A stretch of 64,000 nucleotides of DNA from Hydrocarboniphaga daqingensis (GTDB taxonomy: Bacteria > Pseudomonadota > Gammaproteobacteria > Nevskiales > Nevskiaceae), in NCBI RefSeq assembly GCF_900129825.1, contig NZ_FQWZ01000008.1:1-64000 (forward strand), written 5' to 3'. Position 1 is the stretch's first letter. Each line of letters opens with the position of its first letter. The notes below the pieces were generated by a model. The model saw nothing but the letters and a program-made list of their open reading frames with translations. It did no database searches and was not told where the DNA came from. Made by a program: the position numbers and the translations under genes. Of the stretch, positions 57,062 through 58,831 are shown piece after piece.

Positions 57062-58831
57062 ATGAGCGCGTCTTACCGTCACATCAAAGTCCCCACCAGT
57101 GGTGAGAAGATCACCTACGTCGACGGCAAGCTCTCGATGCCCGACCAGCCCATCGTCGGCTACGTGGAGGGCGACGGCATCGGCCCGGACATCACGCGCG
57201 CCTGCTTGCGCATCTGGGATGCGGCGGTCGAGAAGGCCTATGGCGGCAAGCGCAAGATCCACTGGTGCGAAGTGTTTCTCGGCGAAAAGGCGGCCGGTCT
57301 GTACGACGGCAACTACTGCCCTGACGAAACCATCGAAGCCCTGCGTGACTTGGTGGTGTCGATCAAGGGTCCGCTGACGACGCCGGTCGGCGGCGGCTTC
57401 CGCAGCTTGAACGTCGCGCTGCGTCAGGATCTGGACCTTTACGCTTGCGTGCGCCCGGTGCGTCACTATGCCGGCGTGCCGAGCCCGCTGAAGAATCCGG
57501 GCAAGGTCGACGTGGTGATCTTCCGCGAGAACACCGAAGACGTTTACACCGGTATCGAGTTCAAGTCGGGCTCGCCCGAAAACGAGAAGCTCGCCAAGTT
57601 CCTGCGTGAGGAGCTCAAAGCGAAGTTCTTCGAGGGCGCGGGCCTGGGCGTCAAGCCGATCTCGGCGTTCGGCACCAAGCGCCTGGTCCGCAAGGCGATT
57701 CAGTACGCGATCGACAATGGCCGCGAGTCGGTGACGCTGGTCCACAAGGGCAACATCATGAAGTTCACGGAAGGCGCCTTCCGGAACTGGGGCTACGAAG
57801 TCGCCCGTGAAGAATTCGGCAACGTCACGATCACCGAAGAGCAGCTGTACAGCGAGTACAAGGGCAAGCAGCCGGAAGGCAAGATCGTCATCAAGGATCG
57901 CATCGCGGACATCATGTTCCAGATGATGCTGCTGCGCCCCGAAGAGTTCGACGTGCTGGCCACGATGAACCTCAATGGCGACTATCTGTCCGATGCGATC
58001 GCGGCCGAAGTCGGCGGCGTCGGCATCGCCCCGGGCGCCAACATCGGCGACGGCGTGGCCGTGTTCGAAGCCACGCACGGCACCGCACCCAAGTACGCAG
58101 GCCTGAACAAGGTCAATCCCGGCAGCTTGTTGTTCTCGGGCGTGATGATGCTCGAGTACATGGGCTGGTCCGAGGCGGCCGACCTGATCACGCTGGTGTA
58201 TCCGGAAGTGGTCAGCGACGGCATTGTCACCTATGACTTCGCCCGCCAGATCGACGGCGCCAAGGAAGTCAGCACCTCGGCCTTCGCCGACGCACTGATC
58301 GAGCGCATGCAGGGCGGCGTCGATCTGAACGCCAAGCGCAAGGCCCAGCAGGAGCAGCTGATCAAGGAGCGCAAGCAGCGCGAAATCCGCCGCTTGCTGC
58401 AGCCGACCGAGGAGATGATCTCGACCGGCCGCGTTCCGCATACGGTCGGCGACTTGATGACCCGTGCGCTGATCACCGTGTCCGAGGATGAGACCATCGA
58501 AACGGTGATGGGCGTCATGGCCGATAACAGCGTCAGCTCGGTGGTCGTCGACCCGAATGCGGCTGGCCAGTGGGGCATCCTGACGCGTCGCGACATCGTC
58601 ACCAAGGTCGTGCAGGGCAACAAGAACCCGGCCACGGCCAAGGTCAAGGATCTGGCCTCCCGACCGGTGGTGTCGGTGCCGGCCGAAACCACGATCCGCG
58701 ATGCGGCCGCGATGCTGTCGGCCAAGAACTTCAGCCGCCTGCCGATCTCGCAGGGCGACCGCATTATCGGCATCGTCACCGAGACCGACCTGTTCAATGC
58801 GATCAAAAAGTTCGGCTGGACGGCTGAATAA
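57062..58831 (+). CDS. icd: NADP-isocitrate dehydrogenase with C-terminal CBS-domain pair
   Basis: The protein has 589 aa; ordinary Icd ends near 416. Residues 1-~417 are a full isocitrate dehydrogenase: [20 protein letters not shown] with Ser115 (the site phosphorylated by AceK in E. coli), [35 protein letters not shown], and [20 protein letters not shown] charged helix ([18 protein letters not shown], about 425-445) links to two CBS motifs ([20 protein letters not shown], about 460; [20 protein letters not shown], about 525). CBS pairs bind adenine nucleotides and regulate enzymes, so allosteric control of the TCA/glyoxylate branch is inferred. The start at 57062 is preferred over ATG 57032 for its spacing to GGAT. 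Confidence 0.93.

Follow-up and report, generated by a model that had tools for sequence, protein, structure and literature searches.

What does an isocitrate dehydrogenase (Icd) gain from a pair of CBS domains at its C-terminus? The question is raised by a gene in the window, i.e. the whole stretch of 64,000 nucleotides of Hydrocarboniphaga daqingensis DNA analysed here. The control of Icd by AceK is the textbook example of phosphorylation regulating a bacterial enzyme. A sequence-only reading of this locus had proposed that the fused CBS pair could couple TCA-cycle flux to energy charge, perhaps replacing AceK control or adding to it. The features concerned are the following.

57062..58831, + strand: Icd-CBS fusion gene, 589 aa plus stop; start fixed by homologues, which begin 0–3 residues away
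57062..58309, + strand: catalytic core, aa 1–416, dimeric-type NADP isocitrate dehydrogenase (TIGR00183 over cut-off)
57404..57406, + strand: Ser115 codon, counterpart of the serine presumably phosphorylated by AceK in E. coli
58310..58438, + strand: linker, aa 417–459, charged helix (predicted structure and conservation)
58439..58633, + strand: CBS domain 1, about aa 460–524, bounds approximate (Pfam; block pLDDT 89–97 in the tail model)
58574..58594, + strand: CBS1 ligand motif G505-I-L-T508-R-R-D511 (conservation of T508 and D511)
58634..58816, + strand: CBS domain 2, about aa 525–585 (Pfam PF00571, aa 528–582)
58769..58789, + strand: CBS2 ligand motif G570-I-V-T573-E-T-D576 (conservation of T/S573 and D576)
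56533..56865, + strand: Grx4-family monothiol glutaredoxin, upstream (TIGR00365 over cut-off)
58911..59672, + strand: presumably a molybdopterin-binding/CinA-like protein, 79 bases downstream (no NCBIfam match at 1e-30)

Architecture of the fusion protein

The fusion at 57062–58831 is confirmed as real, and the sequence-only reading was right to join Icd to a CBS pair. A single open frame encodes 589 aa, which begin with an entire NADP isocitrate dehydrogenase of the dimeric type, continue through a charged helix and close with two CBS domains at the C-terminus. Pfam recognizes Iso_dh at aa 32–411 (283 bits) and two CBS stretches (PF00571, 89.4 bits for the protein against a cut-off of 24, the better one at aa 528–582). 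The NCBIfam model TIGR00183 covers aa 5–417 and, with 644.7 bits, exceeds its cut-off of 567.3, which places the protein among the NADP-dependent enzymes, and no family spanning core and tail is found among the best 25 of 30 NCBIfam matches. A longer in-frame ORF starting at 56666 was discarded, since it overlaps the glutaredoxin gene and finds no homologue match, the homologues beginning near 57062. The full-length frame is conserved across many genomes, and purifying selection acts on its CBS part; chance read-through, a frameshift, a chimeric contig or an assembly fault can therefore be dismissed.

Judged by its sequence, the Icd core is catalytically normal. The 130 loci collected yield 106 distinct fusions after removal of identical proteins, and S115, N117, R121, R131, R155, Y162, K229, D283, D307 and D311 are invariant in all of them. 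Presumably, S115, R121, R131, R155, D283, D307 and D311 are the isocitrate and metal ligands and Y162 and K229 the catalytic residues. The residues which we take to be NADP-specific, with roles as in E. coli, are equally well kept, with Y345, V351, Y391 and R395 in 106/106 and K344 in 105/106 distinct fusions (one K344R); the window protein has all five. The AceK-type serine noted earlier is indeed present at position 115, and its E. coli counterpart is presumably the AceK phosphorylation site. As a sign of AceK control, however, this serine is not diagnostic, since it is invariant in 106/106 fusions and also found in the aligned enzymes of P. aeruginosa and Archaeoglobus (A. fulgidus).

With the AceK-controlled Icd of the E. 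coli/P. aeruginosa type the window protein shares the core (62% to 5m2e, 58–60% to E. coli chains; Foldseek), the TIGR00183 assignment, the same serine and the same position in the pathway. It differs by about 172 additional residues with the CBS pair and by the missing AceK match. An extra C-terminal part, as which we take the extension of 2d1c and TIGR02924 (ICDH_alpha), is also carried by Thermus-type IDH; against TIGR02924, however, the window protein reaches only 231 bits of a cut-off of 561, with the match ending at aa 437, and belongs to a different IDH subfamily.

The part beyond Icd, announced as about 170 added residues with a charged helix and two CBS motifs, amounts to about 172 residues, in which a helix (within aa 422–455) is followed by two CBS folds. 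The helix spans aa 422–446 and 448–455 in the full-length AlphaFold model (mean pLDDT 82.8, five models 71–83) and is continuous in the tail-only model. The full-length model is a monomer with a pTM of 0.70, and its domain orientation is drawn on for no conclusion. The tail-only AF2 model (mean pLDDT 86.0, most CBS blocks 93–97) folds as a CBS pair, in agreement with the earlier assignment; its closest solved fold among the matches listed is CBS-CP12 (5nvd) with a Z-score of 19.2, an rmsd of 1.9 and 130 aligned residues, and CBS proteins match it at Z 14–19 (50 matches listed).

Both predicted CBS motifs are intact and conserved across the fusions. We take h-x-T/S-x-x-D in each CBS domain to be the ribose-binding motif, and T/S-x-x-D is intact in both CBS domains of the window protein. 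In CBS1, T508 and D511 are found in 106/106 distinct fusions; the named loci were picked by a scan pattern containing this motif, and the fair count is therefore 52/52, taken from the loci chosen independently of the pattern. In CBS2, T or S at position 573 combined with D at 576 occurs in 105/105 rows having the position. Within the linker, E441, P448, G456 and P459 are invariant, while R437 and R444 are kept in 105/106 distinct fusions. Over 11 pairs, dN/dS ranges from 0.05 to 0.32 in the CBS part, from 0 to 0.52 in the linker and from 0.01 to 0.13 in the core, and identity to the window protein (nine rows) is 33–71% in the tail versus 75–91% in the core. By these figures the tail is less constrained than the core, yet clearly selected.

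Distribution and history of the tail

A search for the Icd-CBS architecture, as the sequence-only reading had advised, recovered it in three sets of genomes. A full-length fusion is present in 31 of the 61 genomes of relatives, the 30 others lying at 72–92% identity; two relatives (G054, G059) have a plain Icd, and the position examined, that in G054, is the same locus. In the class sample, 22/369 genomes from 15 family codes carry the fusion at 62–100% identity (21 others 62–72%). Among named genomes, a tail-profile scan with a single pattern matched 168 stretches, of which 165 are relatives. Of the best 80 among these, 77 encode the full-length fusion in one frame, and the remaining three (L110, L127, L146) are broken or cut. 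The gene of L110 (Alkalilimnicola ehrlichii AK92) extends over all three forward frames, by sequencing errors or as a broken gene. Named carriers include Solimonas, Sinimarinibacterium, Panacagrimonas, Algiphilus, Salinisphaera, Aquisalimonas, Nitrococcus, Halorhodospira, Methylonatrum and Competibacter. In a phylum sample of 398 genomes (E <= 1e-180), no fusion was detected outside the Gammaproteobacteria, both of the two fusions found being in-class. Contigs titled Nitrospira (L096), Verrucomicrobia (L089) and Phycisphaerales (L121) are probably mislabelled MAGs. The record title of L070 (Endozoicomonas) is likewise at odds with its gene, and the label looks wrong. Icd-CBS is thus an old, selected architecture of the Gammaproteobacteria, probably present in more than 100 species, as estimated from 165 candidate stretches, the best 80 of which were examined.

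Besides glutaredoxin, the upstream neighbours of the fusion gene are genes for an ornithine carbamoyltransferase (over cut-off) and a superoxide dismutase, which matches the Fe type best (326 of 348 bits). Among the 31 fusion loci of the window's order, glutaredoxin is found at 26 and the CinA-like gene at 24; the corresponding counts are 23 and 22 at the 78 named loci, and 0 and 1 at the 20 class loci with 1.5-kb flanks. Flank sizes differ between these sets, so that a missing neighbour is no proof of absence. The glutaredoxin/CinA-like synteny is local and probably without functional meaning. Elsewhere in the window, a TPR-rich ORF of 1654 aa (48064–53028), which in our view resembles the cellulose synthase subunit BcsC, is followed by a small TPR-like protein (53025–53540).

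The history of the tail was traced with the Icd core alone: tail columns were excluded, and a quick search without bootstrap gave a tree of 74 rows. Of its 70 inner branches 24 are open, and the plain rows L147 and L150 are long-branched. On this tree, the 46 fused rows group with 12 plain ones in a single clade (SH-aLRT 97), which lies within plain relatives. The fusion label requires at least 7 changes, 5 of them forced by starred branches, compared with 22.7 in shuffles. A single clade of fused rows without losses is rejected by the AU test (p 0.0026) and by a plain Icd in G235:C225 (L167:989-2302), which ends inside the recognizable linker (DLSALRKERKAAIEQERNDL) and represents the remnant of a CBS-tail loss; G235 has isocitrate lyase and does not belong to the 56 genomes of the class sample with AceK. 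Since the fusion tails align throughout, the simple reading is a single gain of the CBS tail, which, from the core tree, several lineages appear to have lost again. The tailless G054 and G059, for example, are nested in Salinisphaeraceae. AceK is found in the genomes of four of the 12 plain rows within the fusion clade (G253, G216, G352, G208) and in none of the other eight; loss of the tail thus does not need AceK. The aceK kinase domain lies about 1.3 kb or less from icd in G216, G352 and G326 (same genus as G216), and beyond that distance in G208 and G253.

AceK and the glyoxylate branch point

On the preferred reading, the CBS pair would replace the AceK kinase/phosphatase at the TCA/glyoxylate branch point in this lineage, exerting in cis a control that AceK exerts in trans. 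The own genome was checked for the three genes that the sequence-only reading had named for this purpose. Isocitrate lyase (627.6 bits against a cut-off of 275.9) and malate synthase are present, while AceK (PF06315) has no match in this genome, which is 99.3% complete, nor in any of the 61 relatives, with a positive E. coli control; isocitrate lyase TIGR01346 is above cut-off in 38/61 relatives. Because the shunt enzymes are present and AceK finds no match, the first half of the earlier proposal, a replacement of AceK, fits the own genome better than the second, an addition to it.

Monomeric NADP-IDH (PF03971) is not found in the own genome either, so that of the two NADP-IDH types the search recovered the fusion alone. 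A second IDH-like gene encodes 357 aa on the minus strand (G000:C2:254873-255937; L036:4868-5941) and matches PRK08997 best, with 435 bits of a 510-bit cut-off; by sequence, an NAD-IDH is possible, as is a related beta-decarboxylating dehydrogenase. Across the order, monomeric NADP-IDH occurs in 8/31 fused versus 25/30 non-fused genomes (Fisher p 8e-6 without tree correction, leaving out a fragment of 30 bits in G059), and Icd-CBS and the monomeric enzyme accordingly tend to exclude each other in the window's order.

In the class sample, AceK is present in 56/369 genomes and an isocitrate lyase-family match of any strength in 187/369. When genomes with both Icd and a convincing isocitrate lyase are compared, AceK accompanies 1/20 fused but 44/73 plain enzymes (p 6e-6). 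For this contrast isocitrate lyase was counted as present only with at least two matches at E <= 1e-17, and G232 (partial, contig edge), G235 (linker remnant) and G267 (partial or uncertain) were left out. If isocitrate lyase is ignored, the counts are 1/22 fused and 46/246 plain and the difference is not significant (p 0.14). A tree-corrected pair test of AceK against fusion, with only 4–5 usable pairs, gives no signal; G253, with weak matches, counts as isocitrate-lyase-bearing in the pair test and not so in the AceK contrast. For the named loci, 50 of the 80 genomes were searched, all of them fused; five have AceK and 46 a convincing isocitrate lyase. Four of the five AceK carriers have a divergent protein only (208–219 bits), and one has a canonical (387 bits) and a divergent protein.

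Such divergent AceK-like proteins (about 196–219 bits to PF06315, compared with 314–424 in the main group) were observed in G152, G272, G820, G837, G839 and G853, and as second copies in G832 and G418. They occur together with Icd-CBS in G272, G820, G832, G837, G839 and G853.

The replacement of AceK is thus supported by the 1/20 versus 44/73 contrast and by nested plain Icds with an adjoining aceK (G352 and G216 in the tree, and G326 from the genus of G216). Against it count the co-occurrence of AceK and fusion in 1/22 class genomes and 5/50 named-locus genomes, the lower conservation of the tail relative to the core, and the loss of significance without the isocitrate-lyase condition. Moreover, isocitrate lyase by the strict criterion is found in 20/22 fused class genomes, with G091 and G279 lacking it; together with the 4/50 named fused genomes devoid of a convincing isocitrate lyase, these two indicate that branch-point control is not the whole role of the tail.

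The fusion could instead tune TCA flux or NADPH supply generally, with the inverse AceK pattern as a phylogenetic by-product. This explanation overlaps the general part of the preferred one and is the strongest of the alternatives, though still somewhat unlikely. It would account for the fused genomes without an isocitrate lyase match, for the eight of 12 nested plain rows without AceK and for the silent test of independent pairs, while isocitrate lyase in 20/22 fused class genomes and an aceK gene next to icd after some nested tail losses are less easily reconciled with it. Replacement of AceK by the CBS pair can be extended to the whole class in a tentative scenario, which we consider possible rather than probable: Gammaproteobacteria would have two interchangeable branch-point devices, AceK in trans and a fused Bateman module in cis, with one ancestral gain of the tail and several losses, some of them accompanied by a gain of aceK beside icd or by replacement with the monomeric IDH.

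Ligand and mode of action of the CBS pair

The general proposal, that the CBS pair is an adenosyl-ligand regulator of Icd, is the one we favour and regard as probable. It draws on the conserved full-length frames, the kept catalytic and NADP residues, the intact ribose motifs, the signature of selection and the fold. Since motifs and fold are intact, the C-terminal CBS pair (Bateman module) is expected to bind an adenosyl ligand in one or both clefts, most likely AMP or ADP in competition with ATP. Binding would alter the packing of the two CBS modules in the Icd dimer; the charged helix that follows the final helix of Icd would relay this change, and the dimer would shift between more and less active states. 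That the AMP/ADP/ATP set provides the main ligand is a narrower claim, to which we give slightly less than even chances. The direction is more tentative again: AMP or ADP might hold Icd active, and ATP might lower its activity and free isocitrate for isocitrate lyase. The AceK phosphatase is favoured by AMP and ADP, which makes Icd active at low energy, and the proposed direction applies this logic in cis. The idea of CBS pairs as sensors of AMP, ATP or SAM, on which the sequence-only reading had built, agrees at the level of fold with the structural neighbours of the tail; complexes with AMP, ADP, ATP, Ap4A, c-di-AMP and SAM are among the matches listed. Taken as a whole, the energy-sensing reading retains the fusion, the intact ligand motifs and the ligand-bound neighbours, and loses Ser115 as a marker of AceK.

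A CBS motif specifies the ribose and not the phosphates of its ligand. The pair could thus sense another adenosyl signal, such as SAM, Ap4A, c-di-AMP or NAD(P)(H), and report on methylation, stress or redox state instead of energy charge. The same fold binds SAM/MTA (3kpc, 4uuu), Ap4A (9s4y) and c-di-AMP (5ks7), and adenylate-bound neighbours are merely more numerous among the matches listed. This alternative, which overlaps the general part of the preferred explanation, appears rather unlikely. An essentially structural tail, serving dimer-to-tetramer or filament assembly or partner docking with little ligand allostery, seems improbable: the top neighbour CBS-CP12 is described as a hexamer and the invariant linker residues E441, P448, G456 and P459 lie outside the ligand sites, but assembly alone would not need the two ribose-binding motifs, which are invariant as well. 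That the tail is a functionless passenger in decay, as its repeated losses, the linker remnant of G235 and its lower identity might suggest, is scarcely credible in view of CBS dN/dS values of 0.05–0.32, motifs kept in 106 distinct proteins and a tail maintained across 15 family codes.

Icd and CBS pairs are each well known, and so are CBS pairs built into enzymes; their combination with Icd is what appears to be new. IMP dehydrogenase and GMP reductase are TIM-barrel enzymes of purine metabolism with the CBS pair set into them, whereas in the window protein it is C-terminal on a decarboxylating TCA-cycle dehydrogenase. CBS-pyrophosphatase is an enzyme unrelated to Icd with a different domain order. 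IMP dehydrogenase and the T. brucei GMP reductase share with the window protein the design in which an enzyme of metabolism contains its own Bateman module, reported in their case to respond to purine nucleotides (PMC4660370, PMC7160140, PMC11303537). CBS-pyrophosphatase likewise is a catalytic enzyme with a CBS pair, regulatory there and predicted to be so here, and it is reported to be inhibited by AMP and ADP and activated by ATP and diadenosine polyphosphates (PMC11172384). AcuB, a close structural neighbour of the tail among the matches listed (Z about 16), is a Bateman-ACT protein of Bacilli which is reported to tie acetyl-CoA synthesis to energy charge; it differs in being a separate protein that acts on the deacetylase AcuC and is not fused to an enzyme (PMC13121692). 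Control of the Icd branch point by a metabolite and without AceK, as proposed here, is described for mycobacteria in the available text on ICD2, where a metabolite acts on ICD in place of phosphorylation; the effector there is glyoxylate, proposed to act near the catalytic site, and that text describes no CBS pair (PMC4999502). For E. coli, AceK is reported to be indispensable when the cells grow on acetate (PMC4999502). Among the matches listed from the open-access literature, as far as titles and the beginnings of abstracts extend, no paper on an Icd-CBS fusion was found, while subscription papers or database architecture pages may exist; PMC4720418 contains CBS only in a reference title.

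Icd-CBS is, by sequence and predicted fold, a real and widespread protein and a plausible regulator. In our judgement, mycobacteria are a worked case of how glyoxylate-shunt bacteria without AceK split isocitrate between the two routes (PMC4999502). A nucleotide sensor built into Icd would be a one-protein answer for AceK-free shunt bacteria, and the fused domain may make Icd self-adjusting, with no need of a separate regulator such as that of E. coli. If the reading with two interchangeable devices is true, a whole branch of the class runs the TCA/glyoxylate switch by nucleotide sensing and not by protein phosphorylation.
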